Shown here: positions 4,615 to 33,959 of the stretch, in pieces
How positions within the stretch are numbered: position 1 is the first letter of the stretch
Layout: each line of letters starts with the position of its first letter
NCBI GenBank assembly: GCA_946402945.1
Contig: CAMIYB010000013.1
Location: 1 to 34,479 of the forward strand
Source of the DNA: an uncultured Bacteroidales bacterium
GTDB lineage: Bacteria; Bacteroidota; Bacteroidia; Bacteroidales; UBA932
DNA: 34,479 nt
Reading direction: 5' to 3'
Program-made: the position numbers and the translations under genes
Notes under the pieces: generated by a model
The model's database searches: none
What the model was told of the DNA's origin: nothing
Seen by the model: only the letters and a program-made list of their open reading frames with translations

Positions 4615-4616
4615 GG

Positions 4617-7362: not shown

Positions 7363-7367
7363 TTACT

Positions 7368-8405: not shown

Positions 8406-8426
8406 CGATTCCCTTTTCAGCAGATT

Positions 8427-17043: not shown

Positions 17044-17358
17044 CTAATCCATATGAAAAACCTCGTCAAGCGGAATGCTGACCGGCGAATTGTCGGGATT
17101 GGTATCCATGATGTCGGCCATGTATGCCCACCAGCGCTGGACGATGGGGTTGTCGCCCAAATCCTGCGACCCGCCCTCACCCGAGGTTTTCTGGAAAGCG
17201 AAGAGTATATTGGTCTCTTTGTCCCAGAAAATGGAATAGTCGCTGACACCCGAGGCGCTGAGCAGCGCTTTCAGTTCGGGCCATATGGCATTGTGCCGGC
17301 GCTGGTACTCCTCCTCGCAGCCGGGCTTGAGATACATTTTAAAGGCTTCGCGTTTCAT
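17044..17358 (-). CDS. rhaM: L-rhamnose mutarotase
   Basis: RhaM interconverts alpha and beta anomers of L-rhamnose, readying the sugar for its isomerase. The 104-residue protein matches the family along its length: EEYQRRHNAIWPEL with His22, Tyr41, the paired Trp76-Trp77 in QRWWAYMADIM, and the NPDNSPVSIPLDEVFHMD ending. These positions agree with the active-site residues of the E. coli enzyme. It is cytoplasmic. It is the last gene of the leftward PUL array, 69 bases after the acetylesterase gene. Its presence is the main sign that the target polymer contains rhamnose; no rhamnose isomerase, kinase or aldolase is present in the window. Confidence 0.93.
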   Translation of the reverse strand: MKREAFKMYLKPGCEEEYQRRHNAIWPELKALLSASGVSDYSIFWDKETNILFAFQKTSGEGGSQDLGDNPIVQRWWAYMADIMDTNPDNSPVSIPLDEVFHMD

Positions 17359-17427
17359 ATTAGTTCAGGATAATTATGTGAATCTTCGGCAATTTAGCAT
17401 TATTTCAGCGAATTCGCAAGTTAATCT

Positions 17428-18858
17428 CTACCAGTTGTCGGTCCGGAACGGCCTGGCCGGAAGTCCGAACACGTTGGTCAGCGTGCCGACTTTGTAGTTG
17501 CGAAAGCAGTAACGGACGGCGACAATCTCCGATACCTGTTCGCAAGTCAGTTCAACGTTGAACCTGTCTCCGACACGTGCCGTGGCCGGGTAAAAAACCT
17601 TGTCGCTGCCGGCAACCTCAAATCCTGCGATGTCCTGATTCAGCGGTGCCAACCCCCCGGGACCGGTCTTGAAGGTCAACACCGCCTTCGTACCTTCGTA
17701 TTTTACTGAATCGAACTCGGGATAGCTGAAATCAACTTCTCCCAACAGCCCGTAATTCCGTTGGAAAGCGAGCAGCGCCAGCCGGCGTCCGACTTCCGGC
17801 TTCTGAGCCGGATGGATAACCACCGGATTACCGATATCGTTGGTCACTACCATGCCGCTGTTGGGAAGCAAATCCAAAGTCAGGGCCTGCTGCTCGCGCA
17901 GATAGGCGGCTTCCAGGTCATCAGCGCCGGAATAATTGTAAGGAGCAATTTCAACAAAATAGAATGGCTGCTTGTCGGACCCGTCACCAAAATTCTCCCT
18001 CAACATCTTTCCGAATGCGGTCTGCAATCTGCTATAGGGAAATTCCGGATCGTTTCCCGGCCGGTTGGACTCTCCCTGATACCAGATAAAGCCCTTGACC
18101 GTAAAAGGGGCGAGCGGAGCCAGCATGGCATTGTAGAGTACCGTAGGCGCCGATTCTTTCTTGACTGCAAAACTATCCTCCTTGTCGGAAAGGTCGTACC
18201 CGAGAGCCCTGAGGCATTCTTCGCTCATCCATGGCTCGATGGCCGTCCCTCCCCAGTCGGAAATAACAAGACCGACAGGGACATGAAGCCTCTCGCATAG
18301 GATTTTGCCAAAATAATAGGCTGTTGCACTGGCCCGGGAAATGGCATCGGGCTCGTTGAGGTTCCACCCGTCCACGCGACAGTCCCATTTCCTTTCCATA
18401 GACGCCTGGCGCGGAAGACGGGCTATGCGCAGCGGGAAAGAGGACTCGGCGGCGAGCATGGCGTCAAGGGCGCCCTCAACGGGCTGGCGGCCATATCCGC
18501 GCATGGGCATTTCCATGTTGGACTGACCGCTGCAAAGCCATACCTCGCCGATAAGTACGTTATTCAGGGTGAGGGATTGGCCGTCGCTTATGGTCATGGT
18601 GTACGGACCTCCAGCAGCAGGGGTTTCAATACGGACCAGCCAACAACTGTCGGCACCAGCCTCTGCACGCGCAGACTTCCCCCACGAACCCTTGACCGTC
18701 ACTTTCTTTCCGGGAGCGGCCTTCCCCCAGACCACTGCCCGGGTCTGCTGCTGAAGCACCATATTATCGCTGAAAATAGCCGGAAGGCGCACCTTGGCAT
18801 GCGAAACGGTGGCAACAAGCAGAAGACCCGACAGGGTCAGGTATAATCTAAGACGCAT
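17428..18858 (-). CDS. SGNH-type carbohydrate acetylesterase (sialate O-acetylesterase family)
   Basis: This secreted esterase of 476 residues probably removes O-acetyl groups from sugar residues. Block I is GQSNMEMPM, with the nucleophile Ser113; WYQGESN (about 259-265) is a further family block; the Asp-x-x-His pair is in NDIGNPVVIHP (His349). The signal peptide is MRLRLYLTLSGLLLVATVSHA with cleavage after HA, so it is a soluble periplasmic or exported protein rather than a lipoprotein. I chose the ATG at 18858 because it gives a proper signal peptide 10 bases after the upstream stop; an ATG at 18888 adds ten residues and overlaps that gene. Annotated relatives are often called sialate esterases, but here the context (GH105, rhaM) suggests acetylated rhamnose or uronate residues. 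Confidence 0.88.
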   Translation of the reverse strand: MRLRLYLTLSGLLLVATVSHAKVRLPAIFSDNMVLQQQTRAVVWGKAAPGKKVTVKGSWGKSARAEAGADSCWLVRIETPAAGGPYTMTISDGQSLTLNNVLIGEVWLCSGQSNMEMPMRGYGRQPVEGALDAMLAAESSFPLRIARLPRQASMERKWDCRVDGWNLNEPDAISRASATAYYFGKILCERLHVPVGLVISDWGGTAIEPWMSEECLRALGYDLSDKEDSFAVKKESAPTVLYNAMLAPLAPFTVKGFIWYQGESNRPGNDPEFPYSRLQTAFGKMLRENFGDGSDKQPFYFVEIAPYNYSGADDLEAAYLREQQALTLDLLPNSGMVVTNDIGNPVVIHPAQKPEVGRRLALLAFQRNYGLLGEVDFSYPEFDSVKYEGTKAVLTFKTGPGGLAPLNQDIAGFEVAGSDKVFYPATARVGDRFNVELTCEQVSEIVAVRYCFRNYKVGTLTNVFGLPARPFRTDNW

Positions 18859-18868
18859 TTTATCTTGT

Positions 18869-20929
18869 TTAATTATCAATGTCGACATCCACGCTCAGCA
18901 GACGTGTGTAGCCGAGTTGGTCGTGCATCTGCATGATCTTGGCATTGTTGGGATAGGTTGCAGCCGATGCTTTGTTGTTACTGGCCCGGTCCGGCATGGC
19001 AACTATCACCGATTTAATTGCAGTATTGGAAGGATACGCATTATAGCCAAGTTCAAACAGTCCGTGAAGGTCGCCGGCCAGGCCGATACGCTCGTCTTCG
19101 CCCGTGTAGTAGCCGCCCTGCAGGCTGGCGTCCGGCGGATTGGAGGCGTAGAACGGAGCATAGAAGGTGTACGCCAATTCGAGGTTTTCACCGGTGGGGC
19201 AGGTGTAGGCAAACAAGTCCGGGCCTCCCGCATTCTTGACTGAACGGGCGATTGTCGAAAGCATCTGGAGGGTAAGGCTCGCATACTGGAGACCCTTGTC
19301 AGGTGCCGTGGAATGACGGAATCTGTCGATAATCTCGCCGGTCTTGGGTGCAACGGCATTCGGGTCGCGCGGGTTGGGGCTGTCGCCCTCCATCAGGATG
19401 CATCCCTGCAGGCAGTCATAGAAATCGCGGGGGTTGTCGATGCTGTCAAGGGCATATTCCACAATCGACATGTCTCCAAGTGCGTAACCGACGGACACAA
19501 GGCCCCAGACGCATGCAACGATATGATTCTGGTAATACTGCTTGTCATAGTAGTCGTTCGCCTGCCATTCAGTCTGGGACTCCTTGATGATGTCGACAAT
19601 CTTACGGAACCAGGCTTCGATGGTGGTCCGTTGGGTGGCCGTGGAGAAATTGTCACTCAACTTGGCGAACTGATAATATACGAACCAGGGGAAGCAGGCG
19701 CGGGCAAGCATGGGGCCGGCGGAGCGCTTCGGGGAGTATTCCACGTTCATGCAGGCCTCGGCCCAGTCCACGAGCAGCGGCGTGGCATAGGTGCCATAGG
19801 TGCTGGTCCTGAGGCTGCCATTGCCCATCTGCGCATACATGAACGCATTCAGGGTGAGCAGGGAGATATTGTGCGCATTGCTGTAGAATTGCTCAGGATC
19901 AGTCGTCGCTTTGTCGTCGTCCGAGACGGATTCCTTGTCGTGCGAGGTAATTCCATTGCCCCTTGTATTCATATAGGTACGGGCCTGAACGAGTGTTGCC
20001 CCAGCACCGTCCCTGACTTTGTTTTTCTGAGCGGCGGTAAAGAGCAGAGTCATAGCGTGTGGATCGGTCAGCGAGAGTTTGTCGCGGTCGTAAGAGAGGC
20101 CGTTATCCAGCACACCAAGCTCGAACACCCGGCCGGCCGAGCCGGTAGCCGCAGCCTTCTTTGCCTTGCTGTAGATCTTGCCATCGGTCTTGGTAACATT
20201 AACCGTAAGGCCGTCAGTAAGGCCGAAAGGCAACACGACAATGTTGTATGTACCTGGTTCAAAGGTTTCCCCGTCGGGCAGCAACTGGACCTTGCTCCAG
20301 GCAATACCCATGGCTTCGGTGTCGATAGAGGGGGCGCCGTTGGCATCAATGACGATGGAAACGTCGCCTGCCAGTTTCTCTGAGTTGTTGGCTTTGATTA
20401 CGACGGCATTAACGTCCGAAGAAGAGATCGTGAAGCGAAGGAGCGTACCGACATTCTGGAAGATGAACTTTCCGTCGGACCCTATCTTTGCAACGGAGAG
20501 GTTGGTCATATCCTGGAATCCCTCCTTGACGGCCGTCTGCTTGTGGGACAGGCTGGTCGTAATGGTTTTGGTGGAGTAGTCCCAAGTAGCATCGCTGTTG
20601 TAAGGATACAGGGCGTAGAACTCTTGGGCTTCTGAATCAACATAGCCCGAGAAGTAGGTGGTACCGCCTGCCGCAGAGGCCGTAAAGGCTTCGTAGGAGG
20701 CGCAGGTTGCCGTTTCGTCGAAGACATTGATTTTATCGGTTGCAGACCACACTACGGACAGTCCGTCCCCGTCGAGAGCCGTCTTGGTGAAAGCCGACGA
20801 GAAGGTCTTCTCTACTAGTCCATTGGACTTTACAGATACCTTGATGCTCTCTTGTGAGCAGGCAGCGACGGCCAGCAGGGACACCAGGCCCAGGGCAAAT
20901 GCTATTCTGTTTTTCATCCTGTTATTCAT
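18869..20929 (-). CDS. Lyase-like lipoprotein 3: fimbrillin-like domain fused to alginate-lyase-like all-alpha domain
   Basis: This lipoprotein of 686 residues (from ATG 20929; Cys24 in LAVAAC) has two parts. Residues about 30-275 resemble Bacteroidota fimbrillin-like proteins (FTKTALDGDGLSVVWSATDKINVF, then TTYFSGY and FYALYPYN). Residues about 285-686 match the alginate-lyase (PF05426-like) alpha/alpha barrel: NDYYDKQYYQNH with Asn468-His469, then IIDRFRH with Arg538-His539, GLQY with Tyr549, and GGYYTGEDERIGLAGDLHGLFELGYNAYP. Asn/His, Arg and Tyr are the sort of residues used for uronide beta-elimination in such folds; the catalytic assignment is inference. It starts 5 bases after the small peptide gene. 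It is closely related to the protein at 21093-22649 in the barrel domain. Substrate unknown; a binding-only role is possible. Confidence 0.8.
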   Translation of the reverse strand: MNNRMKNRIAFALGLVSLLAVAACSQESIKVSVKSNGLVEKTFSSAFTKTALDGDGLSVVWSATDKINVFDETATCASYEAFTASAAGGTTYFSGYVDSEAQEFYALYPYNSDATWDYSTKTITTSLSHKQTAVKEGFQDMTNLSVAKIGSDGKFIFQNVGTLLRFTISSSDVNAVVIKANNSEKLAGDVSIVIDANGAPSIDTEAMGIAWSKVQLLPDGETFEPGTYNIVVLPFGLTDGLTVNVTKTDGKIYSKAKKAAATGSAGRVFELGVLDNGLSYDRDKLSLTDPHAMTLLFTAAQKNKVRDGAGATLVQARTYMNTRGNGITSHDKESVSDDDKATTDPEQFYSNAHNISLLTLNAFMYAQMGNGSLRTSTYGTYATPLLVDWAEACMNVEYSPKRSAGPMLARACFPWFVYYQFAKLSDNFSTATQRTTIEAWFRKIVDIIKESQTEWQANDYYDKQYYQNHIVACVWGLVSVGYALGDMSIVEYALDSIDNPRDFYDCLQGCILMEGDSPNPRDPNAVAPKTGEIIDRFRHSTAPDKGLQYASLTLQMLSTIARSVKNAGGPDLFAYTCPTGENLELAYTFYAPFYASNPPDASLQGGYYTGEDERIGLAGDLHGLFELGYNAYPSNTAIKSVIVAMPDRASNNKASAATYPNNAKIMQMHDQLGYTRLLSVDVDIDN

Positions 20930-20934
20930 GGCAA

Positions 20935-21081
20935 TCAAAAATAAGGGGAGACATTCTCATCCTGATGGAAAGGTTCGTTGGAAGCAGCCCAGGGATTTCC
21001 CGTCTCACTTCCAGTAAGAATGCCGGCCGACGGCAGGAGATTCACCGCCTCGCATTCCGGTTGATAATACGTTTTCTTCAT
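20935..21081 (-). CDS. 48-residue small protein of unknown function inside the PUL
   Basis: A complete frame runs from ATG 21081 to TGA 20935-20937. It encodes a short polar protein beginning MKKTYYQPECEAVNLLPSAG and then ILTGSETGNPW, ending NVSPYF. It fits the gap almost perfectly: 11 bases after the stop of the lyase-like gene at 21093 and 5 bases before the ATG of the next one. The opening 'MKK-x-Y-x-x-P-E-x-x-x-x-x-L' followed by a Ser/Gly/Thr-rich stretch is a pattern I recognise in many unnamed short Bacteroidales proteins, often near fimbrillin-like genes. It has no signal peptide and no membrane segment. I cannot assign a function. Confidence 0.7.
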   Translation of the reverse strand: MKKTYYQPECEAVNLLPSAGILTGSETGNPWAASNEPFHQDENVSPYF

Positions 21082-21092
21082 CTTTTTAGCGC

Positions 21093-22649
21093 TTACTTTG
21101 TTGCATCTGCATCGATACTGTAGAGGCGGGTGTAGCCCAGCTGGTCATGCATCTGGACTTTGTTCTGCGCCCGGTTGGGAATAGCGTCGATGACGGCCTT
21201 GATGGCCTCGCTGTCGGGATAGGCATTGTAACCCAGCTCAAAGAGTCCCTGCATGTCCCCGGCAATTGTCAGACGCTCCGTCTCGCCGGTGTAATATCCA
21301 CCCTGGAGGGAGGCGTCCTTCTGGGCGTAGAAGGGGGCATAGAACTCATACGCCAGGCGGAGGTTCTCGCCGGTCGGGGCTTCATAAGCATACATGTCAA
21401 TTCCGTTGTTGTAGCAGGTACGGGCGGCGCAGGACAGCAGCTGCAGCGTCAGGCTGGTGTACTGCAGGCCCTTCAGCGGACCGGTTTCGTGACGGTACCG
21501 GTCGTAGATCTCGCCGGTCTGCGGAGCCTTGGACGAGACGGATTCCCGGCTGCAGGGGGTATCGCCCTCCATGAAAATGCAGCCTTGTATCAGCTCGTAG
21601 AAGTCGCGGGGATTCTCATCGGAATCAATGGCATACTGTACGAGGGAGGCATCTTCCAGCACATAACCGATGGTCAGGAGGCCCCACATGTGGGCTGCCA
21701 GGTGGTTCTGGTAATACTGCTTGTTGAAATAATCATTGTTCTGCCAGGCGTTCATACTGGCCTTGATGGCCTTTTCGATGTTCCGGAACCACGCCACGAT
21801 GACCTGGTCCTGGGCATCAGTAATGTACTGGGTGCCGCGAAGCATATCATAGGTCGCAAAGAAGGGCCAGGCGGCACGGGCCAGGTACATGCCGGCGCCG
21901 GTGGAAGGCTCTTCGAGGTCTTCCGTGCTGTTAATCGGATAATCGACATCCTTGCACGCCACGGCCCAGTTGTGGAGAATATCCACGGCGCCGGCCGCAT
22001 AGCTGTCCTTCTTCGAGGCATCCGTCGTCAGATGGGTCGCAACCGCGCGGTGAAGCGCCAGGACGGCAGGGCCCTTCATGGATTTGTACAAAGTCCCCAT
22101 ATCGGAGGTCTCCTGCTTGGCGGCCGTAGTGACCGCATTCGGGTCATAGGTTCCGCCGGCCCGGGTATAGATGAAATCAACCGCTTCCTTCAGGCTCGGG
22201 GCGCCGGCTGTATACGCATCCGCGATTTTCTTGAACTGCTCTGCGGTAAACGCAATGGACGGGTGCTTGAATGTGATTTCCAGCTTCTTACCGTCCTGCT
22301 TGACCACGACGGCAGCTGTCAGTTCGCCGGCTGAAATCTTGAGCGTTGCGCTGCGCTCGGTCTTTTCGTCGTTGGCGACAACATCAAGATTGATTTTTCC
22401 GTTTCCACTACCTTCAGAAGCTCCGGAGAAGGAAATCCAGTCTGTAACTTCGCCCTCGAGGGCCGCTGTCCAGGCTCCGTCGCAGATAAATTCGACCAGA
22501 ACGCCTTCCTGACCGGCATAAGGCACAGTGACGATGTCGTCCGTAACTACGGAAAGTTTGGTAGGACCAGTCGGGACGGGATCCTTGGGCTGGCAGGCTC
22601 CCATCAGAAGCATGGAAGCCGCTACGAGAAAGAGTGCAATCTTTTTCAT
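21093..22649 (-). CDS. Lyase-like lipoprotein 2: BACON domain plus alginate-lyase-like all-alpha domain
   Basis: This 518-residue lipoprotein (Cys19 in LLMGAC) has a BACON-type beta domain at about 31-120 (VTVPYAGQEGVLVEF, WISFSGASEGSGNGKINLDV, ATLKISAGELTAAVVVKQDG), often a spacer or mucin/glycan-contacting module. Residues about 135-518 form the alginate-lyase-like barrel: NDYFNKQYYQNH with Asn315-His316, IYDRYRH with Arg386-His387, GLQY with Tyr397, and GGYYTGETERLTIAGDMQGLFELGYNAYP. The Arg-to-Tyr spacing is 11, the same as in the protein at 18869-20929. The start overlaps the GH105 stop by 4 bases (ATGA), a sign of translational coupling. The likely role is cleavage of a uronic-acid polymer at the cell surface; this is inference from fold and context. 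Confidence 0.82.
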   Translation of the reverse strand: MKKIALFLVAASMLLMGACQPKDPVPTGPTKLSVVTDDIVTVPYAGQEGVLVEFICDGAWTAALEGEVTDWISFSGASEGSGNGKINLDVVANDEKTERSATLKISAGELTAAVVVKQDGKKLEITFKHPSIAFTAEQFKKIADAYTAGAPSLKEAVDFIYTRAGGTYDPNAVTTAAKQETSDMGTLYKSMKGPAVLALHRAVATHLTTDASKKDSYAAGAVDILHNWAVACKDVDYPINSTEDLEEPSTGAGMYLARAAWPFFATYDMLRGTQYITDAQDQVIVAWFRNIEKAIKASMNAWQNNDYFNKQYYQNHLAAHMWGLLTIGYVLEDASLVQYAIDSDENPRDFYELIQGCIFMEGDTPCSRESVSSKAPQTGEIYDRYRHETGPLKGLQYTSLTLQLLSCAARTCYNNGIDMYAYEAPTGENLRLAYEFYAPFYAQKDASLQGGYYTGETERLTIAGDMQGLFELGYNAYPDSEAIKAVIDAIPNRAQNKVQMHDQLGYTRLYSIDADATK

Positions 22650-23845
22650 AATGATTCGTGTTTTTTGTGGATATATTTTAAGACTTGAAGGCCGGCAAGC
22701 GTGAATGCCGCCGTACCGTAAACTTCATTTTTATCGGCCGAAATGTGGTCGGGGGTGTCACCTATCGGCTGGACCCAACCAAGCTTTCCACCGGGCTGCA
22801 AGGCCGCAATCATGGCTTTCCATCCTTTTTTTGCGGAAGGCAGAAAAGTTGCTTCATCCAACAGTCCATTGTTGATGCCCCACCATAAACCGAAGGTCAG
22901 GAAACCGGTGGCGCTGCTTTCCGGAGACGGGAAGTCTTCCGGGTCAAGAAGGCTTGTACGCCAGTAGCCGTCCGGACCTTGAAGCCTTTGCAGACGGGTT
23001 GCCATGCAACGGAAAAGTTCCTCATACTTCGGACGGTCGGGGTAGCCGGCAGGCAGAAGGTCCATCACGCGGGCCAGTCCGGCGAGCGCCCAACCGTTGC
23101 CGCGCCCCCAGAACACTTTGGCACCATTTGGTTCACGTGCATCGAAAAAGCGGCTGTCGCGGAAAAACAGGCTGTCGGAAGGAGAATAAAGGTAGCCTGT
23201 CGTGCGCCAAAACTCACGGTTCATGAATTCGCGGTATTCGGAATTACCGGTGAGCATGGCGTACTTCGCATAGACCGGAGCCGCCATATAGAGGGCGTCG
23301 CACCAGCTCCAGCACTCATGGCTGGAAGTCAGCAGAAAGTCCAGACCGCCATCCACCGGCCAGTATTTCATCTGGAAATCCAGTCGCTCCATAGTCGGCG
23401 TCAACATGTACCAGCCACCCCTGAGCGTATCCAGGGCCGCCTGGTAGTCGGATATCCGTTCTTTTAAAAACCGCGGCCGCGGATTGTCTTCATAAAGGGA
23501 TGCGTAGAGCATGCTCACGGCGATGTCGTTGGCCGGATCGAAGGATTTTGGGGCAGGCTCATACGAGGTTATTTCAGCGATTTCGGCAAGGCGCCTGCGG
23601 ATTTCCGGACTGCCTTCCCACAATGCTGCCGCGCTAAGAAAAACGCCGTCAGCCCATCCGACGTAACGCGGATTGAACCAGAAACGTCCACACTCCGGCA
23701 TATTGTCCAGTTGCCAGAGAATGGCGTCCTCAACGGCCGACTTGACCGCATCCTCGGTAAGGGCGTCGCTATAGGCGGGCGCCTTGCCTTTCTGCCCGCA
23801 GGAGAGCACCAACATGGCAAGGCCTGCAATCAGTATCTTTCTCAT
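22646..23845 (-). CDS. GH105-like unsaturated uronyl hydrolase (rhamnogalacturonyl hydrolase type), lipoprotein
   Basis: Enzymes of this type remove the 4,5-unsaturated uronic acid that a polysaccharide lyase leaves at the non-reducing end, giving 5-keto-4-deoxyuronate for KduI. The 399-residue protein (from ATG 23845) has an all-alpha barrel pattern, with Asp66 in YVGWADGVF and Asp183 in CWSWCDALYMAAPVY as the candidate acid/base residues. WGRGNGWALAG (246-256) and ESSATGFLTFGLWWG are family motifs. The second acidic motif (WCDALYM) departs from the common W-I/V-D-D-x-Y/F-M form, so GH88-like relatives are possible. Signal peptide ends in VLSC (Cys16). Its ATG overlaps the SusD stop by 1 base; another ATG two codons upstream is equally possible. 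Confidence 0.87.
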   Translation of the reverse strand: MRKILIAGLAMLVLSCGQKGKAPAYSDALTEDAVKSAVEDAILWQLDNMPECGRFWFNPRYVGWADGVFLSAAALWEGSPEIRRRLAEIAEITSYEPAPKSFDPANDIAVSMLYASLYEDNPRPRFLKERISDYQAALDTLRGGWYMLTPTMERLDFQMKYWPVDGGLDFLLTSSHECWSWCDALYMAAPVYAKYAMLTGNSEYREFMNREFWRTTGYLYSPSDSLFFRDSRFFDAREPNGAKVFWGRGNGWALAGLARVMDLLPAGYPDRPKYEELFRCMATRLQRLQGPDGYWRTSLLDPEDFPSPESSATGFLTFGLWWGINNGLLDEATFLPSAKKGWKAMIAALQPGGKLGWVQPIGDTPDHISADKNEVYGTAAFTLAGLQVLKYIHKKHESL

Positions 23846-25548
23846 CACCATCCCGGATTATTTGGTAGCAGATTAGGGTTATTGGTAGTTTCTTCGGAAG
23901 GAATCGGCCATAGGTTGTGACGGTCTTCAAAGGTTCGTGTAAACAGCGTCGTTCCGGTGAATTCAACCTCTTTGCGACCGTCCAGGAGCTGCTTTGCTAT
24001 ACCCCAGCGACGAATATCCGAGAATCGGTGACCCTCCCCGGCAAGCTCGAAGGCCCTTTCGTCGCGGATGCGCTGGCGCAGGCCTTCCTGTCCGCCGGAG
24101 GCAAGCCACTGCGGACCACTGTCTATTCCAGGCATATCCACGCGGCTTCTCACGCGGTTGACACAACCCACGGCCTTTTCCAAATCGCCATGTTCGCAAT
24201 AAGCCTCGGCCAGCATCAGCAGCACGTCGGCAAAACGGATAATCGAGAAGTTTACAGGACTGTGACGACGGTCGGTGAGCGCCCCTTTCATATCGCCACA
24301 AGGAACGAACTTGCGGTAGAGGTAGACTTTCCATCCTCTGTCAAACTGGATGAAGCCATTGGCCGCCGTCGTACCGGCGGCAATAGCATACTGCTGCATC
24401 ACGGCCTTGTCCGTAACCCAGCCTTCGTACCAGGAATACGGCACGATGAGGGATGAGGTCATCCGCGGATCCCGGTCTGCATATATCCGGGCCAGCATGG
24501 TTGTATCGGGAACAGTTTCATAGTCTGTCAGTTCAGCATTGAGCTTGGCTTCGAAGGCGGTCCGCTTCACGGCGTCATCTGCGTTGAAGCCGGGGATGTA
24601 ATCATCCCAGTTGAAAGGCTTTCCATCCTTGAGCTGATACATGTCGGCCAGTTTCACGCTTGGCATGCATGTGGCACGTCCTGAACCATATGTACCGCGC
24701 GTTCCATAGAGTATCGGGAATTCCATTCCATATAGAGCTCCGACCGAACCTTTGTTCTGGATTGTGAACACTTCTTCGTGATTGCCGGAAATCGGACCGG
24801 CCGTGGAGAACAGGGCCCCGAAATCCTTATAGAGTTCGTAACCATATGATTCCGATTTGTTTTCGACTATTTCCTCGAAATCGGATATGGCTTTTTCCCA
24901 CTGCTTCTGAAAGAGCCAGGCCTTGCCGCGGAGGGCATATGCAGCACCTTTTGTAGCGCGTCCGTAGTCGGCGGCAGGCCATGTCACGGGCAGCCGCTCT
25001 ATGGCCCGGGTGAGGTCGTCGGTTATGAATTTCCAGCACTGCTCGGCCGAAGAACGGGGAAGAAGCATCTCCATGTATTTTTCGGTAATGTCCCACGTCT
25101 CGTCATACAGGGGCACGCTGCCGAAGAAATCCACCAGGTGAAAATAGTACAGGGCCCGAAGGAAGTAGGCTTCTCCCATTATCTGTCGTTTCACGGCGTC
25201 GTCCAGAGACATTGCCGCCGTGTTTTTCAATACGGTATTGGCGCGATGGACACCATCCCATGTATCTTTCCAGTTCGACACCAGAAAGTCTTCCTTGGCC
25301 GTATATTTTCCAGTTTCAAGGCCGGAACCGGGACCATGGCCTATATCGGAATATGTGTCCCACAGGGGCATGTAGCCGTAGGAGCCCATTTCTTTCAACT
25401 GGGCGTAAACACCCATGACAGCGCGGGTGGCGTCTTCTTCCGTCTGCCAGAAATTGCCCTGCGCCACGGAATCGTACGGCGCCGTATCAAGGGAAATGCA
25501 GCTGCCGGCCATGACGCCGAGCATCAGCAGTATAATAGTTCTTTTCAT
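23845..25548 (-). CDS. SusD/RagB family outer-membrane glycan-binding lipoprotein
   Basis: SusD-like proteins cap the SusC barrel and capture oligosaccharides at the cell surface. The 567-residue protein has a signal peptide ending in AGSC (Cys17) and the family start LDTAPYDSVAQGNFWQTEEDATRAVMGVY. TPR-like helices follow (GEAYFLRALYYFHLVDFFG; ALRGKAWLFQKQWEKAISDFEEIV), and the typical C-terminus RIRDERAFELAGEGHRFSDIRRWG and LWPIPSEETTNNPNLLPNNPGW. It lies 4 bases after susC, the usual pair arrangement. The ligand cannot be deduced from sequence. Confidence 0.96.
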   Translation of the reverse strand: MKRTIILLMLGVMAGSCISLDTAPYDSVAQGNFWQTEEDATRAVMGVYAQLKEMGSYGYMPLWDTYSDIGHGPGSGLETGKYTAKEDFLVSNWKDTWDGVHRANTVLKNTAAMSLDDAVKRQIMGEAYFLRALYYFHLVDFFGSVPLYDETWDITEKYMEMLLPRSSAEQCWKFITDDLTRAIERLPVTWPAADYGRATKGAAYALRGKAWLFQKQWEKAISDFEEIVENKSESYGYELYKDFGALFSTAGPISGNHEEVFTIQNKGSVGALYGMEFPILYGTRGTYGSGRATCMPSVKLADMYQLKDGKPFNWDDYIPGFNADDAVKRTAFEAKLNAELTDYETVPDTTMLARIYADRDPRMTSSLIVPYSWYEGWVTDKAVMQQYAIAAGTTAANGFIQFDRGWKVYLYRKFVPCGDMKGALTDRRHSPVNFSIIRFADVLLMLAEAYCEHGDLEKAVGCVNRVRSRVDMPGIDSGPQWLASGGQEGLRQRIRDERAFELAGEGHRFSDIRRWGIAKQLLDGRKEVEFTGTTLFTRTFEDRHNLWPIPSEETTNNPNLLPNNPGW

Positions 25549-25552
25549 GGCA

Positions 25553-28500
25553 TCAGAATGTTACGTTGATTCCGGCAGTGAACTGACGGAGAGTCGGATA
25601 AGTTGTGCCGCCAACCTCGGGGTCAATGCCCCTGTAGTTCGTGAGAGTCAGAAGGTTCTCGGCAGAAACATAGAAGCGGAGCCTGGAAATCATTATTTTC
25701 TCGGTGAGCGAAGACGGCAGCGTATAGCCCAGCTGGATGTTTTTCAGCCGGATGTAGGACTTGTCCTCAACCCAGTAGTCGCTGGGCTGGTTGTTGATAG
25801 TGTTGGTACGAGTCAGCAGGCGGGGAGCCGTGGCATCAGTCACGCCGGGACGCCATGCACCTTCGGCAAGACGCGTATTGATCGGTCCGCCGTAGTTCAG
25901 ATAGCCCATATTGAAATTGTCCATCCACAGCACTTTATAGCCTGCATTTCCTTGCAGCATGAATGAAAAGTCGATGCCTTTGTAGTCCAAACCGGCCTGC
26001 ACGCCGAAAATCCATGGGGCAACCGCACCGTTTCCAACGGCATATCGGTCGTTTTCGTCAATGACCCCGTCGCCATTCAGGTCTTTATAGAGGAAATCTC
26101 CCAACTGCGGCGTACCATAGGCCGAGAACGGGTTTTTCTTCTGACCGGAGGCAGGATCGACCGGGGCGTTTTTTTGCATCTCCTTGACCAGCAACATATC
26201 GTCATCGGTCTGAAGGATGCGGTCGACGGCAAGGACATACTGAACATTGATCGGATAATTCTCCTTTATCATATTCACGCCGCTGATTGTAGCTTCATCC
26301 CCCTTGTAGCGGACAACCTTGTTGCGTACCCACGCCAGGTTGCCGCCGATGTACCAGTTAACAGAACCGATGCGGTCGCGCCAGCGGATATCGAAGTCGA
26401 AACCACGGTTGTCAACCCGCGCGGCGTTGGTCTTGGGAATGGAGGCATTGCCGACCAGAAGGGGAGCCGGAAGGTCTATGAGAATATTCTGTGTATCCTT
26501 GTCGTACCAGTCCAGAGAACCGGTAAGGCGGGAGCCGAAGAATGCGAAATCCAGACCGATGTCCGCCACATAGGTGGTTTCCCAGGTAATGTCAGCATTG
26601 CTGATTTCCAAAATAGCCAGACCCGGAGAAACCGCCCCGCCAAGAACATAGTTGTCCTGGCCGAAAGTAGCCTGGCTGTCATAGTTGCCGACTGCATTGT
26701 TGCCCAATGCGCCCCAAGAGCCGCGCAGTTTCAACTGAGAGATCCATTCCACATCGCTCAGGAACGGTTCTTTCTCCATTCTCCAACCAAGCGAGAACGA
26801 GGGGAAAAAGCCCCAGCGGTTGGCCCCTTTCTTGAACCGGGACGACCCGTCTGCACGTAAATTAGCTTCAAAGAGGTATTTATCGTCCCATACGAGATTA
26901 ACCCGACCGAAGAACGAGTGCATTGCCCACTCTGACTTGGATCCCTTCGCCTCGGCATCTCCCGTAGCGGCGTTAAGCACAGACAGGGATTCTTCGATAA
27001 GATCATATCGCTTGCCGCTGAAGGATTCTGAAATGGCCCGCTCCTGACTGGCTCCGGCCATGGCGCCCAACCACAGGCGTCCGCCGAAGGTATGGTCGTA
27101 GCGGAGGATGGCTTCGGTCAGTAGCCTGGACCCCGAGGATATGTAGCTATATGCATAATCCTTTCCGTTTTTGGCATAGACTACGGTGTTCATCCTGAAA
27201 CTCCACAGATCTTGATACTCAGGATGATAGTTTTGAAGCTCGTTCTTCCTGGAGTAGTTCAGGGAGCCCTCGAGCGTCAGGCCTTCCGCCAGTTTGACAT
27301 TTGCGAAGAACCTGGTCTGCAAAGTATTGTCTTCAGTGGCTCCTTTTAAGGTGTTGAACATATAGAGCGGACTCATGCTCTGGGCATTTTCTTCCGGATT
27401 TTCTATGCCGCCGTAGCGTCCGTCGCTCCAGCGGTAAATCATTCCAGGCATCCCGACAGCGCTGAAAAGAGATTTCATCTGGTTGGAGAGACCGCCTATA
27501 TCCGCCTTACCCACTTTTCCGCTGACGTTCATTCCGAGAGTCAGGAAATCCAACACCTGCGCCTTCGCATTAAGGCGGGCGTTGTAGCGGGTGTAGGCGG
27601 AGTTCTCAATTATACCCGGATTATGCATGTAACCGAGCGAGCCATAAACTGAAATGCGTTTTGTGCCGGCAGAAAACGACAGGTTGTGATTGTTGGCCAG
27701 TCCTGTCTGGAAGACCTCCTTCGTCCAGTCCGTATTCGGGTATAGAGGATTACCCTCGTTGCTGCGCCATAACTGGATCATGCCGTCGGAATACTGCTGC
27801 TTCGCGCTGGGATCGGTGTTGTGGACCGCTTCATTATAGTACGTCATGTAGTCAGCGTAGTTGCTGACCGTCTCCAGCAGATGGCTCGGGCGCGACGCGG
27901 ATATGTAACCGTTGTAGGTGACGGAGAATTTACCCTCCTTGCCGGTCTTGGTAGTGACAAGTACGACGCCGCCGGCTGCTCTTGAACCATAAATAGCTGA
28001 GGATGAAGCGTCTTTTAAAATAGAAATTGCCTGGACATCCTGCGGATTGACAGATGCCAAGTCCCCTTCCACGCCATCTATGATAACCAGCGGTGAAGCA
28101 GAGTTGAGCGTACCGCGCCCGCGTATCAGTAGTGTTGCCCCGTCGGCATTGGGACGGCCTGAAGCCTGATTGACGTAGAGACCGGCACTAAGGCCGGCAA
28201 GGCCGGCAGAGATGCTGGTCACAGGACGTCCTTCAAGCATTTCCTCCATATCTACGGACGATACGGATCCGGTCAAGTTGGCTTTTTTCTGCACTCCATA
28301 ACCTACTACGACTGTTGCATCGAGTGACTGGGTGCTTTCTCGAAGGACCACCGTTGCATTCTTCAACACAGAGGCCGCCTTTTCAACATCTTCATATCCG
28401 AGGGCCGAGAAAAGGACAAGCACCTCAGCATCAGCGACATCGAGTGTAAAACTTCCATCAGTTCCAGTAACGGTCCCATGCGTAGTGCCCTTTTCCAGGA

Positions 28501-28633
28501 CGCCGGCGCCGGGAACGGGACTGCCCTGGGCATCGACCACTTTGCCGCTGATTTTGAACGGGGTCTGCCCCCACACTATCATCGGCAGCAATAGCGCTGC
28601 AAGAAGCATGATTCGTTTTCTGTTAATTGGCAT
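25553..28633 (-). CDS. SusC/RagA family TonB-linked outer-membrane transporter
   Basis: This 1026-residue outer-membrane barrel imports oligosaccharides using TonB energy. After a signal peptide (about 1-23) it has a carboxypeptidase-regulatory-like domain (FKISGKVVDAQGSPVPGAGVLEKG..., about 26-105), then the plug domain (VVVGYGVQKKANLTGSVSSV, then VTSISAGLAGLSAGLYVNQASGRP and LVIIDGVEGDLASVNPQDVQAISILKDASSSAIYGSRAAGGVVLVTTK). A long barrel follows, ending TLRQFTAGINVTF with a terminal aromatic as is usual for barrel insertion. No STN signalling domain is seen, so it is not likely to drive an ECF sigma/anti-sigma pair; regulation probably goes through the HTCS. The start lies 12 bases after the first lyase-like gene. 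Confidence 0.97.
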   Translation of the reverse strand: MPINRKRIMLLAALLLPMIVWGQTPFKISGKVVDAQGSPVPGAGVLEKGTTHGTVTGTDGSFTLDVADAEVLVLFSALGYEDVEKAASVLKNATVVLRESTQSLDATVVVGYGVQKKANLTGSVSSVDMEEMLEGRPVTSISAGLAGLSAGLYVNQASGRPNADGATLLIRGRGTLNSASPLVIIDGVEGDLASVNPQDVQAISILKDASSSAIYGSRAAGGVVLVTTKTGKEGKFSVTYNGYISASRPSHLLETVSNYADYMTYYNEAVHNTDPSAKQQYSDGMIQLWRSNEGNPLYPNTDWTKEVFQTGLANNHNLSFSAGTKRISVYGSLGYMHNPGIIENSAYTRYNARLNAKAQVLDFLTLGMNVSGKVGKADIGGLSNQMKSLFSAVGMPGMIYRWSDGRYGGIENPEENAQSMSPLYMFNTLKGATEDNTLQTRFFANVKLAEGLTLEGSLNYSRKNELQNYHPEYQDLWSFRMNTVVYAKNGKDYAYSYISSGSRLLTEAILRYDHTFGGRLWLGAMAGASQERAISESFSGKRYDLIEESLSVLNAATGDAEAKGSKSEWAMHSFFGRVNLVWDDKYLFEANLRADGSSRFKKGANRWGFFPSFSLGWRMEKEPFLSDVEWISQLKLRGSWGALGNNAVGNYDSQATFGQDNYVLGGAVSPGLAILEISNADITWETTYVADIGLDFAFFGSRLTGSLDWYDKDTQNILIDLPAPLLVGNASIPKTNAARVDNRGFDFDIRWRDRIGSVNWYIGGNLAWVRNKVVRYKGDEATISGVNMIKENYPINVQYVLAVDRILQTDDDMLLVKEMQKNAPVDPASGQKKNPFSAYGTPQLGDFLYKDLNGDGVIDENDRYAVGNGAVAPWIFGVQAGLDYKGIDFSFMLQGNAGYKVLWMDNFNMGYLNYGGPINTRLAEGAWRPGVTDATAPRLLTRTNTINNQPSDYWVEDKSYIRLKNIQLGYTLPSSLTEKIMISRLRFYVSAENLLTLTNYRGIDPEVGGTTYPTLRQFTAGINVTF

Positions 28634-28645
28634 ATCAGTAATTGC

Positions 28646-29893
28646 TTATATTCCATGAGTCAACACAACGTTGCCAAAGAGGTGCAAGTTGCAATTGACC
28701 GTTCTGTCATTATTGTCGAGCACTTCCCGGAAAGACTTTTCGCCGGGATATCTGGCCGCGGCAATTTCCCACAGGGAGCTGGCCGCCTGGTCGTTGTGGT
28801 TTATGAACCATTCCTCCCCGGCGTAGATGCTGCCGGAACAGTCGTGAGTGGAGAAATACCTTGCGTAGTGTTTCCACGTCTTGAATATGCTCTCGCCGTG
28901 TTCGCCTTCCCAGGAATAGAGGTCGAAGCCGTTATTGCGGCATATTTCCGCCGCTGCGACCAGCAGAGTCGTAGTCAGACAGCAATACTGCAGTCCGCGA
29001 TCTGGCTTCGTGACATAATCCTTGTAGTGGCCGCTCATCTGGAAATGACGGTAGCGGTCGAATATTTCGCCGTCGTGGACAGGATAGCCTGATGGTTCGC
29101 GGTAGTAAGGCTCGTCTCCCTCCATCAGGATGCAGCCTTCCACAAGGTCAAGGAGGTCGCGCTCGTTTTCGTTGCTGTCAAAGGCATATTGCAACAGACT
29201 ATCATCGCCAAGAATAACGGCAATCGCCAGAAGCCCGAGCGTTTCGGCAGCAGGATGGTTCTGGAAGTACTGACGGTCGTAGTAGTCATTGATTTTCCAT
29301 CGGCGGGCTCCTTCTTTAATAACCGGGACAAGAGCTTCAACCCACTGGCAAAAACGCTTCTGAAGTGCCTCTGACGGCAGATTGTCCGCCATTAGGAGGT
29401 CGTAGCCATACAGGAAAGGGAATATACCGCGGGCCGCCAGCATACCGCCTTCGCCACTGTCGGTACTGTCGTTGATCCGGGTCCCGGCAAAGCTTTCTCC
29501 GGAAGTCCATTGTTCCAGGATTCCAATGGCGGCGTCGGCATATCTCTTATTCCTCGTAATCTGCCAGAGGATGGCCAGATCCCTGACCATTGCGCCGTCA
29601 CGCTGGCCGCCGTTGTAGAACGACATGCCATCATCTCCGAAATACGGCGAGGCTGTCCAGGTGCCGGATACGGCATCGCTACACGACTCCCTGAGAAAAA
29701 GAAAGCACTCCTTGAATGGCTCTTTGCCCGAAAGGGCCTTCTGCTGCATTGATGCAATATCCTGGCTGGAAAGAATCAGACGTGGAAACGATTGGCTTAT
29801 CGCAATAGTCCGACCCGGGGCATTGACAGACATGCACCCTGTCAGAATGAGCAAGGCTATAATTGTGATATTCGTTAATTTAAATCGTTCCAT
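28646..29893 (-). CDS. Lyase-like lipoprotein 1: single alginate-lyase-like all-alpha domain
   Basis: This is the first gene of the PUL array: 415 residues, lipobox LTGC (Cys20). It consists of little more than the barrel domain. It shares with the other two lyase-like proteins INDYYDRQYFQNH (Asn212-His213), IFDRYRH (Arg282-His283), GLQY (Tyr303) and CILMEGD. An insertion of ten residues between Arg282 and Tyr303, and a different C-terminal part (SGSIYAGEEWFINHNDQAASSLWEIAAARYP), make it the most divergent of the three. N-terminal strands such as PRLILSSQDIASMQQKAL resemble the start of alginate-lyase and heparinase-type catalytic modules. Placing a lyase before susC is consistent with a role in initial attack on the polymer; activity is inferred. 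Confidence 0.82.
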   Translation of the reverse strand: MERFKLTNITIIALLILTGCMSVNAPGRTIAISQSFPRLILSSQDIASMQQKALSGKEPFKECFLFLRESCSDAVSGTWTASPYFGDDGMSFYNGGQRDGAMVRDLAILWQITRNKRYADAAIGILEQWTSGESFAGTRINDSTDSGEGGMLAARGIFPFLYGYDLLMADNLPSEALQKRFCQWVEALVPVIKEGARRWKINDYYDRQYFQNHPAAETLGLLAIAVILGDDSLLQYAFDSNENERDLLDLVEGCILMEGDEPYYREPSGYPVHDGEIFDRYRHFQMSGHYKDYVTKPDRGLQYCCLTTTLLVAAAEICRNNGFDLYSWEGEHGESIFKTWKHYARYFSTHDCSGSIYAGEEWFINHNDQAASSLWEIAAARYPGEKSFREVLDNNDRTVNCNLHLFGNVVLTHGI

Positions 29894-30020: not shown

Positions 30021-33000
30021 ATGCTGACTTCGCTATTATTACTGTTTCTTTCTGTCCTGCCAACCCCGGTTTTTCACCATAAGGGGATGGAATCAGGCTT
30101 GTCCCAACTCACTATAAACGGTCTGTATCAGGACGAAAACGGAACATTGTGGGTTGGAACCCGCAACGGCGTAAAATATTACGACGGAACATCGTTTCTG
30201 CCTCTTACTTTCCCGGAACAGAGTTCCTGGGTCATGTCCAACCTGGTTCCGACTGTTTGCGGAGACGGCACCGGGTCTATTTTTATCAATACCGACTATT
30301 CCGTAGTCCGCTATGACCTGGCGGAAGACAAAACAGAGACGCTTTTCTCTCAGACGCGCACTTCTTCCCCGCCCGATATTTCCATTCATTTCGGCCCTTC
30401 GGGACTATGGATCGGCTGCGCAAACCGGATTTACCGATGGACCAGGGAAACTGGTCTCCAAAATATCACTTCGCTTAAAACACCCGGGGCTTCCATTTCC
30501 TCCTTGCTTGAACATGACGGAACCTTGTATATAGGTACGCGAAAGGACGGGCTTCTGGGTCTCTCGTGCAGCGAAAAAGAAGATGTGCTTATTGGCCCTT
30601 GCAGCGAAGTGATAACCCTGTTTGCGGATTCCGCGGGGCATATCTGGTGCGGGACCTTCGAACATGGGGCATATTCCCTGGACGGAACTTCCATTTTGAA
30701 TTATTCCACGGCCGGTCCTGTCAAACTGAGCAGCAATTATATCCGTACTTTTTCAGAAGACAGCTACGGACGTATCTGGATAGGAACTTCACATGGCGTT
30801 GATATTATTGACCTTTCGGCGGAAAAGGTCACTCATTGCGGACTTTCCACTCCGGGCCATCCCGGATTGAGCAACCTTTCAGTCTGGTCTCTGCTCAGGG
30901 ATAGGCAGGGTAACATGTGGATAGGCTCCTATTATGGAGGCCTGGATTATTGTTCATTTGCCAATGAGGTTTTTTCTTTCGAGAATTTCGGCCTGACCGG
31001 CGGCAATGGTTATCCGCTTATCAGCGATGCCGCCGTTGACCGCAGTGGAATCGTATGGCTGGCAACGGAAAGCAATGCCCTCATCCGCTATGACGGCACC
31101 TCATGGCGTTTCATGCGCGAACTCCCTTTTGCCGGATATAATATCAAAGACCTCCTGATGGAAAAGGATTCCACCACACTGTGGGTCAGTACGCATATGG
31201 GTGGCCTTTGGCGTTACAATACTGTAACCGGTCAAAGTAAACACTTCACTATCAATAATAAAGATATGACAGCCCGGTCGGAGAGCCTTATCTCTGCCGG
31301 CAAATTCGGACGCCATCTCCTTATCGGGACGCTACAGGGAGTGTATTGGGTGAATCCGGAAAGCGGGCAGATCAATCCCGTCCCTGAAGTAAACCGTTAT
31401 GTATATGAAGCCGACAGGGTACTTGTCTGCGCCGACTCTGCAACTATTTGGCTGTCAGGCAATACTTTATGTCGGTACACTCCGGGGAACGGCGTTGTCG
31501 AAGACTATTCCGACAATCTGAAAGAACTTACGGGCGGAGCTCCAATCACCCTTATTTCAATAGCGGAAAACAGCAGCGGAGATATCTATGTAGGTACTGC
31601 AGGCTACGGACTACTTTCCTTTGACCGGCAAAACAATCGCTTTATCAAGGTAAAACCCAGAAAATCTAATTTCCCCAGCCAGTATATCAGTTGCATTTAT
31701 CCTTCAAGGGACGGGTATCTTTTACTCGGCACTGACAAGGGTCTATGCCGGTATAATCCAGCTACCGGATTTGTGTATCTACTTGACAATCAATCAGGCT
31801 TTCCGCTTGTTTCAATGCTTCCGGGGTGTATCTCCGACAACCGCGGACAGCTTTTTTTGGGCGGGGTCAACGGTCTGGCGGTAACGACGGAATATCTGCT
31901 CAGCGAAATGCAGAGGCCACAGACGCTTTCGTTCTCAAGACTTCTTGTAAATAACCAGCCTGTACGTCCTGGGGACAGTTCCGGAATTCTTTCAAAAGCC
32001 CTTCGCCTCACGGAGGAAATAATCCTTTCGCATCGCCAAAACGAGCTTACGTTCCATCTCGGAACCGACCATCCGGCAGCCGCCGAGCAAGTCAATTATC
32101 TGTTCCAACTGGAAGGATTGGACAAGGAATGGACTTTGCACAGCCTTAAGGAACCTATTCATTATGACGGACTTGCTCCTGGCAACTATCATCTTCTTAT
32201 AGGGCAGGTCGCCACTCCCGACGAGGTAAGCCTGAAACTCGACATAAGGATTCGCCCTCCGTTCTACTCGTCTTGGTACGCCTGGACCATGTATGCCCTT
32301 CTGCTACTTGGAATTGCTGCATTTGTCTTCTATTTCTTCCTGACGAAATTCAAATTGACGACATCGCTTGCCCTTGAAAGGAAGAATCAGGAGGAAACCG
32401 AGAAACTCAATAAGCAGAAACTGAGGTTTTTCGCCAATATGTCGCATGAGTTGCGGACGCCGCTGACCCTGATTATGGGACATCTTGAACTTCTTAAGAA
32501 ATCGTCTCCTCTCATGGCAAGGCAACGCGAAGAAGTGGATATGGCCTACCGCACTGCGGAAGACATGGTCGATATGGTCAGGGACCAGCTTTCATTTATC
32601 AAAATGGAAGAGGGCGGTTTCCAACTTCATCCTGTTTCCGGGGACCTGGTAAGTTTCGTGCGTAACATTATCGATGATTTCCAGGTACTTGCGAGGCAAA
32701 AAAACATTTCTCTTTCCTATACTTCCAGCCTGCCGGAATGCAATGTATCTTTCGACAGGGACAATTTGAAAAAAGTGTTTTACAATTTACTGTCCAATGC
32801 CTTCAAATACACGAAAGAAGAAAGCGGACTCATCAGGGTGTATCTCGGTCAGGACAGGCCCGGGGAAGTTTTCATTCGCATTTCCGACAACGGGATAGGC
32901 ATAGACAAAAACTCTGTAGGAAAGGTGTTTGAACGCTTCTATCAGTCGGATAACGCCATTAATCGAGATGCTTCGATGACCGGCGCCGGTATCGGCCTTT

Positions 33001-33959
33001 CCATGGCCTCTGAAATCATCTCTATGCATAAAGGACGGATTACGCTCGAAAGCAAGGTGGGTCAAGGAAGTACCTTCACCGTGTTTTTGCCTGTCCTTGA
33101 AGATGCTGTTACTCCGGAAGTTGAGGTCTCGGCACAGGAAGTCCTGCAAAATGATTATTCTCCCACCGAACCCGCTTCTTCGAAGAAAAGGAAATTGTTG
33201 CTTGTCGAGGATGATGAGGCACTTCGCAATATGCTTGTAGAGGTTTTCCGGCCTAAATTCAAGGTTTTGGTGGCATCCAACGGAAAGGAGGGGCTGATGG
33301 TAGCCGAACGCGAAAGTCCGGATTTAATCATATCAGATATCATGATGCCGGTAATGACCGGTGATGTTTTCTGCAGAAACATCAAGTCGAATTTTGCGAC
33401 CTCGCATATTCCAGTCATACTCCTGACTGCACTGGCCGACGTCGAGGACAATATTCATGGATTCAACTGCGGCGCAGATGATTATATCACAAAGCCATTC
33501 AACATCGACCTGTTGGTTGCAAGGAGTATCGGACTGCTCAACAACAGGGCTTTGCTCCAGAAGCGTTTTTCCGCTGCCGAACAATCCGACCCACAGATGC
33601 TTTCCGAAAACAACGAGGATATCGAATTCATTGGCCGGCTGATACGCCTTATCGAGGATAATATCTTTGATAAGAATATAAGTGTCAGTTATTTATGTGA
33701 GCAGCTTGCTATGGGGCACACCAAACTTTTCAATAAGATCAAGGGGCTCACCGGGCACTCTCCGCAGGAACTCATTCTGTCGGTGAAAATAAAATATGCG
33801 GCCAGAATGCTTCGCGAACAGACTGCGCTAAACGTCAGCGATATCGCATACCAGCTTGGATACAATTCCCTGAACTACTTCGGGAAATGTTTCAAGTCGG
33901 CTTTCGGAATGTCGCCTTCCGCCTATAGGAAAGAGCACGTTGCTTCCTCGGAGAAATAG
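30021..33959 (+). CDS. Hybrid two-component system sensor-regulator (HTCS)
   Basis: This 1312-residue one-protein signalling system senses oligosaccharide in the periplasm and switches on PUL genes. After a signal sequence (about 1-16) comes a series of reg_prop beta-propeller repeats (for example DENGTLWVGTRNG 38-50, DSYGRIWIGTSHGV 247-260, DRQGNMWIGSYYGG 294-307), then a Y_Y_Y domain (about 670-745) and a membrane helix (about 753-776). The cytoplasmic part has a kinase domain with His809 in FFANMSHELRTPLT, N box NLLSNAFKYT (922-931), DNGIGI (956-961) and GAGIGLS (988-994); a receiver domain with Asp1106 (ISDIMMPVM) and Lys1158; and an AraC-type DNA-binding end (about 1205-1305, VSDIAYQLGYNSLNYFGKCFK). 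All key residues are present. It is divergent from the PUL genes and so almost certainly their regulator. Ligand unknown. Confidence 0.96.
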   Translation: MLTSLLLLFLSVLPTPVFHHKGMESGLSQLTINGLYQDENGTLWVGTRNGVKYYDGTSFLPLTFPEQSSWVMSNLVPTVCGDGTGSIFINTDYSVVRYDLAEDKTETLFSQTRTSSPPDISIHFGPSGLWIGCANRIYRWTRETGLQNITSLKTPGASISSLLEHDGTLYIGTRKDGLLGLSCSEKEDVLIGPCSEVITLFADSAGHIWCGTFEHGAYSLDGTSILNYSTAGPVKLSSNYIRTFSEDSYGRIWIGTSHGVDIIDLSAEKVTHCGLSTPGHPGLSNLSVWSLLRDRQGNMWIGSYYGGLDYCSFANEVFSFENFGLTGGNGYPLISDAAVDRSGIVWLATESNALIRYDGTSWRFMRELPFAGYNIKDLLMEKDSTTLWVSTHMGGLWRYNTVTGQSKHFTINNKDMTARSESLISAGKFGRHLLIGTLQGVYWVNPESGQINPVPEVNRYVYEADRVLVCADSATIWLSGNTLCRYTPGNGVVEDYSDNLKELTGGAPITLISIAENSSGDIYVGTAGYGLLSFDRQNNRFIKVKPRKSNFPSQYISCIYPSRDGYLLLGTDKGLCRYNPATGFVYLLDNQSGFPLVSMLPGCISDNRGQLFLGGVNGLAVTTEYLLSEMQRPQTLSFSRLLVNNQPVRPGDSSGILSKALRLTEEIILSHRQNELTFHLGTDHPAAAEQVNYLFQLEGLDKEWTLHSLKEPIHYDGLAPGNYHLLIGQVATPDEVSLKLDIRIRPPFYSSWYAWTMYALLLLGIAAFVFYFFLTKFKLTTSLALERKNQEETEKLNKQKLRFFANMSHELRTPLTLIMGHLELLKKSSPLMARQREEVDMAYRTAEDMVDMVRDQLSFIKMEEGGFQLHPVSGDLVSFVRNIIDDFQVLARQKNISLSYTSSLPECNVSFDRDNLKKVFYNLLSNAFKYTKEESGLIRVYLGQDRPGEVFIRISDNGIGIDKNSVGKVFERFYQSDNAINRDASMTGAGIGLSMASEIISMHKGRITLESKVGQGSTFTVFLPVLEDAVTPEVEVSAQEVLQNDYSPTEPASSKKRKLLLVEDDEALRNMLVEVFRPKFKVLVASNGKEGLMVAERESPDLIISDIMMPVMTGDVFCRNIKSNFATSHIPVILLTALADVEDNIHGFNCGADDYITKPFNIDLLVARSIGLLNNRALLQKRFSAAEQSDPQMLSENNEDIEFIGRLIRLIEDNIFDKNISVSYLCEQLAMGHTKLFNKIKGLTGHSPQELILSVKIKYAARMLREQTALNVSDIAYQLGYNSLNYFGKCFKSAFGMSPSAYRKEHVASSEK

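Follow-up and report, generated by a model that had tools for sequence, protein, structure and literature searches.

Two paired subfamilies of alginate-lyase-fold proteins in a Bacteroidales polysaccharide utilization locus, with a rhamnose- and glucuronate-containing glycan as possible substrate

Gene content of the locus

The DNA analyzed here (the window, 34,479 nucleotides, contig CAMIYB010000013.1 of an uncultured Bacteroidales bacterium) carries, at 17044-33959, a single polysaccharide utilization locus (PUL) built around three proteins of the Pfam family PF05426 (Alginate_lyase), called PL_A, PL_B, and PL_C. All results come from computational analysis (gene calls, profile matches, structure models, and a tree), and the functions given are to be read as predictions. 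The labels of the PUL genes were assigned by Pfam and NCBIfam profile searches, as follows.

28646..29893, minus strand: PL_C (P0003), PF05426 lyase-like lipoprotein, C-type subfamily, first operon gene (N212/H213/R282/Y303)
25553..28633, minus strand: SusC, TonB-dependent transporter (TIGR04056, 901.6 bits)
23845..25548, minus strand: SusD, surface glycan-binding lipoprotein (PF07980 and PF14322)
22646..23851, minus strand: GH88/GH105 unsaturated uronyl hydrolase (P0005; PF07470, 216.2 bits; 203.5 bits to 4ce7)
21093..22649, minus strand: PL_B (P0002), BACON domain and PF05426 toroid, B-type subfamily (N315/H316/R386/Y397)
18869..20929, minus strand: PL_A (P0001), N-terminal part without assigned family and PF05426 toroid, later B-type duplicate (PF05426, 38.5 bits; tree; N468/H469/R538/Y549)
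17428..18888, minus strand: SASA-type acetylesterase (P0004; PF03629, 53.4 bits; 7kmm, 245.5 bits)
17044..17358, minus strand: L-rhamnose mutarotase (P0009; TIGR02625, 120.9 bits, cut-off 99.6; 6hhn, 148.6 bits)
30021..33959, plus strand: hybrid two-component system (HTCS) regulator, divergent from PL_C (Reg_prop, HisKA, HATPase_c, Response_reg, and HTH_18)
3748..9089, strand unspecified: Kdu-type genes (DUF4861, KduI, short-chain dehydrogenase, PfkB kinase, and KDPG/KHG aldolase), outside the operon (Pfam matches)

The locus thus joins a SusC/SusD pair, glycan enzymes, and a regulator, the combination by which a Bacteroidota PUL is recognized. Its eight minus-strand genes, listed in their order from PL_C to the mutarotase, are separated by 12, 4, -7, -4, 163, -20, and 69 bases and are therefore likely to form one operon. 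A preliminary description of this DNA had placed the three lyase-like reading frames at these positions, with SusC, SusD, a GH105-like hydrolase, an acetylesterase, and a rhamnose mutarotase around them, and the profile searches agreed with it on every one of these genes.

Motifs, fold, and catalytic residues

All three proteins scored above the PF05426 cut-off of 22.2 bits (PL_A 38.5, PL_B 47.3, and PL_C 59.9), and they share the motifs that had been described for them (NDYYDKQYYQNH, NDYFNKQYYQNH, and NDYYDRQYFQNH, plus DR[YF]RH...GLQY), with the Asn, His, Arg, and Tyr intact in each. Counted from the ATG starts, the residues proposed earlier for mutation are correctly numbered (His469, His316, and His213 of PL_A, PL_B, and PL_C). 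The proteins are 415-686 amino acids long, and the toroid makes up their C-terminal part. Structure models were made for PL_B and PL_C, PL_A being known from its sequence and the tree, and both models contained the toroid lyase fold, which spans residues 121-518 in PL_B and 29-415 in PL_C and reaches the end of the model. PL_A and PL_B have a lipobox and extra N-terminal parts, where PL_C has no additional domain. A fimbrillin-like N-terminal part in PL_A, suggested by a PF13149 tag on the relative P0054, was dropped, as hmmscan found PF13149 in none of seven proteins, six of them of PL_A length. The trio are likely beta-eliminating lyases.

Residue conservation was examined in 123 domain rows, made up of the window proteins and P0011-P0118 with 12 two-domain proteins split into halves. 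In PL_B numbering, Trp302, Gly379-Glu380, Arg384, Arg386, Gly394, Gly427-Glu428, and Glu471 were invariant, and Asn315 was found in 122 rows, Gln311 in 121, Tyr397 in 120, and His316 in 103. Hence, the conservation of the His claimed in the preliminary description holds for all window copies but not for the family, as 20 rows have Met (12), Gln (4), Trp (2), Ile (1), or Ser (1) in its place (P0015, P0016, P0018, P0021, P0031, P0043-P0047, P0050-P0054, P0057, P0061, P0065, P0080, and P0082). These members mostly retain the Asn and Arg, and none of them is a fused half or belongs to P0003 and P0107-P0118. P0054, P0080, and P0082 may be inactive, since they have lost the Tyr besides the His.

One family with two paired subfamilies

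To place the trio among other PF05426 proteins, a tree was built by a quick search with SH-aLRT support only, from 93 of 136 rows and 407 columns. Rows more than 80% identical were dropped, and 11 proteins outside the motif pattern, several of them His-less, were left to the conservation set. In it, the 71 rows of the family stood apart, with a support of 95, from 18 further PF05426 rows from the phylum and from four PL17-like rows, the program warning that long branches may join the two outgroups. A profile of seven of the 18 phylum rows recovered 3nfv at 2e-109 and BoPL38 at 3e-83 (283 bits), so the 18 rows can be taken to stand for PL38.

Within the family, PL_C fell in a 14-row clade (SH-aLRT 99) together with the N-terminal halves of the two-domain proteins P0032, P0034, P0036, and P0037, and PL_B and PL_A fell in a 34-row clade (SH-aLRT 100) together with the C-terminal halves of P0032 and P0036. 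The three had been described as equal paralogues, which the tree does not bear out: PL_A and PL_B are close paralogues, with PL_A the later duplicate within the B-type branch, and PL_C represents an older branch. The tree thus describes one family with two subfamilies, B-type and C-type, which occur as a pair, and this pairing is the new point.

Subfamily hidden Markov models (HMMs) agreed with the tree on C-B halves for P0032, P0034, P0036, P0037, and P0038. By HMM preference alone, the C-B pair was found in all 12 fused proteins and in three fused genes of related loci (L015, L017, and L021), but the margins were small for P0033, P0035, P0039-P0042, P0048, and the fused genes at the loci, and the tree placed both halves of P0039, P0040, and P0048 within one clade (SH-aLRT 98). 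The statement that all fused proteins are C-B pairs was therefore abandoned and kept only for the five proteins on which the two methods agree. As there are other two-domain proteins whose halves group differently, the sequences suggest that domain doubling happened more than once.

Related loci and distribution

Related loci were collected by a pattern-based search (22 of 211 stretches, 16 loci) and their content was read by tblastn with the window proteins and by the subfamily HMMs. Thirteen of the 16 carry at least two family domains, the exceptions being L018, L022, and L023; two of these, L018 and L023, are close to a contig end, and L016 and L019 share part of one contig. SusC, SusD, and the PL_C/PL_B pair recur at L008-L012. 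L008-L011 also have the close GH105, and L012 has a more distant PF07470 protein. Rhamnose mutarotase was found at five loci of two phyla (L008, L009, L012, L013, and the Planctomycete L016) and not at the other 11, which include L010 and L011. A near relative, L008 (RUG387; PL_C 97% and PL_B 86% identical), matches the window in gene order, tonB and dnaE included, but for one additional gene, a 542-amino-acid reading frame without Pfam match between PL_B and PL_A (11654-13279). The cluster is rare: at E 1e-30, P0003 had matches in three of 398 family genomes, all of its own genus, and in its own genome only among 393 order genomes and 395 phylum genomes.

Several other observations were made at these loci. 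In L011, from a Rikenellaceae metagenome-assembled genome, SusC, SusD, and PL_C contain in-frame stops (TAG 3574, TGA 6302, and TGA 9283), which may reflect decay, assembly error, or recoding; its GH105 and PL_B, and the same genes of L010, contain none. DUF1961 proteins, 43% identical to each other and possibly a further pathway enzyme, lie beside the lyases at L012 (12735-13550) and L013 (3565-4368).

In the window, the PUL genes have a GC content of 0.53-0.57 and the HTCS gene 0.48, compared with 0.60 for dnaE and 0.59-0.65 for the left part, and this lower GC makes a foreign origin of the PUL (17000-34000) possible. The preliminary description had drawn on a downstream Kdu pathway. Kdu-type genes are indeed present, with the short-chain dehydrogenase in the place of KduD, but they lie outside the operon, from which major facilitator superfamily (MFS), dnaE, and tonB genes separate them. 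They are a possible sink for unsaturated uronate. Next to the KDPG aldolase gene and outside the PUL, 9093-10766 encodes a phosphodiesterase/sulfatase-superfamily protein with a laminin-G-like domain (PF01663, 59.9 bits; PF00884, 24.2 bits, just below the cut-off of 25).

Predicted substrate and mechanism

The GH105, P0005, has the PF07470 domain and a WCDALYM motif that aligns with the WCDALFM of 4ce7, an unsaturated 3S-rhamnoglycuronyl hydrolase with which it thus shares the catalytic region (WCDAL[YF]M) and which is its nearest solved relative (203.5 bits, against 178.2 for 5noa, 163.4 for 4q88, and 37.1 for YteR). 4ce7 acts on a beta-linked residue and YteR on an alpha-linked one. Since P0005 is close to the former and far from the latter, glucuronate is favored over rhamnogalacturonan I. 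The substrate of 4ce7 is sulfated, but no PUL protein matched a sulfatase family in the Pfam scan, so that a sulfated substrate is not implied and the sulfatases expected of an ulvan PUL are missing. Neither was a galactanase, as for arabinogalactan, found in the PUL gene content, and comparison of the SusD gave no clue to the ligand.

The alternative that fares best, though unlikely, is a PUL for the backbone of rhamnogalacturonan I, in which the lyases cut rhamnose (Rha)-1,4-galacturonate (GalA), the GH105 cleaves DeltaGalA-Rha, and the esterase removes GalA acetyls. Lyase, GH105, acetylesterase, and rhamnose mutarotase would together suffice for this, and plant-fed hosts are plausible. Against it stand the score to the rhamnogalacturonan I enzyme YteR (37.1 against 203.5 bits), on which it was dropped as first choice, and the nearest folds. 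PL5 and PL17 act on mannuronate, guluronate, or glucuronate and are not known to act on galacturonate. PMC13027841 and PMC13169297 describe PL38 in the same terms.

The mutarotase of the PUL, whose nearest match is the L-rhamnose mutarotase 6hhn, points to free rhamnose, and its presence at five of the 16 loci argues against plain glucuronan or alginate. The substrates first listed (glucuronan, rhamnogalacturonan, or a similar uronate polymer) are thereby narrowed, and we conclude with moderate confidence, without considering the matter settled, that the substrate contains rhamnose and glucuronate (GlcA). Judged by gene content, this set of lyase, GH105, esterase, and mutarotase is about what would be required for a linear, acetylated glycan built of Rha-1,4-GlcA repeats, and we hold the chances of beta-elimination at such a linkage to be about even. 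PL1, PL9, PL11, PL6, PL17, and rhamnosidase, stated earlier to be absent, were not found among the window genes scanned, but six GH78-type matches lie elsewhere in the genome. The genome, which is 70.6% complete and has no other PF05426 genes that we found, also encodes the rhamnose isomerase RhaA.

We propose, as a reading as likely right as wrong, that the trio are lyases acting at O-4 of a beta-linked D-glucuronate whose neighbor is likely L-rhamnose. The unsaturated glucuronate so formed would be taken off by the GH105 encoded nearby. The observations behind this proposal are the gene content, the fold seen in two models, the conserved residues, the separate clade, subfamily pairing and fusion, and the kinship of the GH105 and mutarotase. 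PL_A and PL_B would act first, cutting chains at the cell surface; the pieces would enter through SusC and SusD, and PL_C and the GH105 would finish them in the periplasm, while the SASA enzyme would take off acetyl groups. Rhamnose would pass through the mutarotase to RhaA and the unsaturated uronate to the Kdu-type genes. The syn elimination expected for glucuronate would fall to the Tyr, the carboxylate being held by Asn and Arg, and the His, which part of the B-type branch can do without, would help or serve C5 epimers. If this is correct, these bacteria use a rhamnose-glucuronate glycan, and the Pfam label of "alginate lyase," the only one for the family, is probably wrong as to substrate. 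In that case, the fused two-site proteins and the homologues that naturally lack the His would also allow a direct test of which residue decides between syn and anti elimination in this fold.

The lyase clusters of L009 and L013 both have a URO-D protein (71% identical between the two loci), an MFS transporter, and an aldo-keto reductase at their flanks, and L013 also has MtaB, B12-binding corrinoid-protein, and activation-domain genes. Similar corrinoid genes, without MtaB, lie on another contig of the L009 genome (G107), and the Planctomycete L016, which encodes both B- and C-type lyases as well as a LacI regulator, has a rhamnose mutarotase adjoining a URO-D gene (5909-7328). The URO-D/corrinoid-type gene sets (L009 13350-16830, L013 12322-21121, and L039 4394-6714) hint that the glycan contains an O-methylated sugar. 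Because G000 and G330 gave no URO-D match, MtaB was found in one of 28 genomes searched, and URO-D in 16 of 151 congeners, O-demethylation was demoted from a part of the window PUL to a side idea.

A more speculative and improbable version would be a new two-enzyme lyase module, in which a His-keeping C-type enzyme is partnered, and more than once fused, with a B-type enzyme able to drop the His and work by Tyr only, on a rhamnose-glucuronate glycan whose O-methyls are stripped by a corrinoid methyltransferase system in some lineages. In its boldest form, one partner would eliminate methanol from 4-O-methylglucuronate and the other rhamnose.

Comparison with known lyase families

As proposed in the preliminary description, the trio were compared by HMM, and PL_B and PL_C by structure, with PL5, PL38, and PL17, which gave a common fold, 12-15% identity to BoPL38 and 14-16% to PL5, and no counterpart of the PL17 C-terminal domain. 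PL38 has the toroid fold of the PL_B and PL_C models and the Asn, His, and Tyr in place, with Gln in the trio at BoPL38 His297. PMC13027841 and PMC11790493 give alginate, glucuronan, hyaluronan, and chondroitin as substrates of its members. The trio could thus be distant PL38-like enzymes for glucuronan, alginate, or a glycosaminoglycan, with the mutarotase incidental. We consider this more doubtful than the rhamnogalacturonan I alternative, since identity is 12-15% to BoPL38 (8bdq and mutants; 13-17% to 3nfv/3nnb), the trio fall in a separate clade, and mutarotase neighbors occur in two phyla. Single-sequence searches with the trio gave no BoPL38 match. Membership of PL38 itself was rejected on the separate clade and on the trio profiles, which reach BoPL38 at only about 1e-7 (about 33-35 bits, partial cover) against 3e-83 for the PL38-type profile.

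It is more improbable still that one partner of the pair is a dehydratase or C5-epimerase preparing ends for the other partner or the GH105. The ulvan dehydratase P29_PDnc (PL37) is reported to need Asp, Arg, and Lys, not Tyr, whereas the Tyr is present here in 120 of 123 rows. Least probable is that PL_A, and perhaps PL_B, are binding proteins with catalysis lost or fading and PL_C the sole working enzyme, which would suit the 20 rows without the His, three of which lack the Tyr too and none of which belongs to P0003 and P0107-P0118, but not the retention of all four residues in every window copy.

PL5 alginate lyase A1-III (1qaz, 4f10, and 4f13) has the toroid, Asn-His, Arg, and Tyr in common with the trio at 14-16% identity, but the trio differ in their lipoprotein PUL setting with GH105 and mutarotase. 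Single-sequence searches with the trio found no PL5 match at E <= 1, and profile A3 reached 1hv6 at 1.2e-5 across a short stretch. PL17 (Alg17c, 8bdd) and PL39 (6jp4) have the N-terminal toroid and NH motif in common with the trio, followed by a large C-terminal domain, a beta domain in PL17, that is missing from the window proteins. The Rha-alpha-1,4-GlcA lyases of PL27 and PL42 would share with the trio the proposed linkage and the release of rhamnose without a rhamnosidase. PL27/PL42 chains appeared neither in the single-sequence searches nor among the structure matches listed, and PMC13169297 gives His-His-Asp as the PL42 center.

No description of the trio's clade was found in the portions searched of the literature on PL38, PF05426, and Rha-GlcA lyases. 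The earlier suggestion of a distant branch of PL5/PL38-like enzymes agrees with what was found, and sequences and models support a lyase-like clade that is distant from PL5 and PL38 and separate in the tree but shares their fold and catalytic residues. If this holds, the trio may represent a new enzyme family, as judged against the CAZy families with a solved structure that were compared; the residues reported for PL37 differ from theirs.
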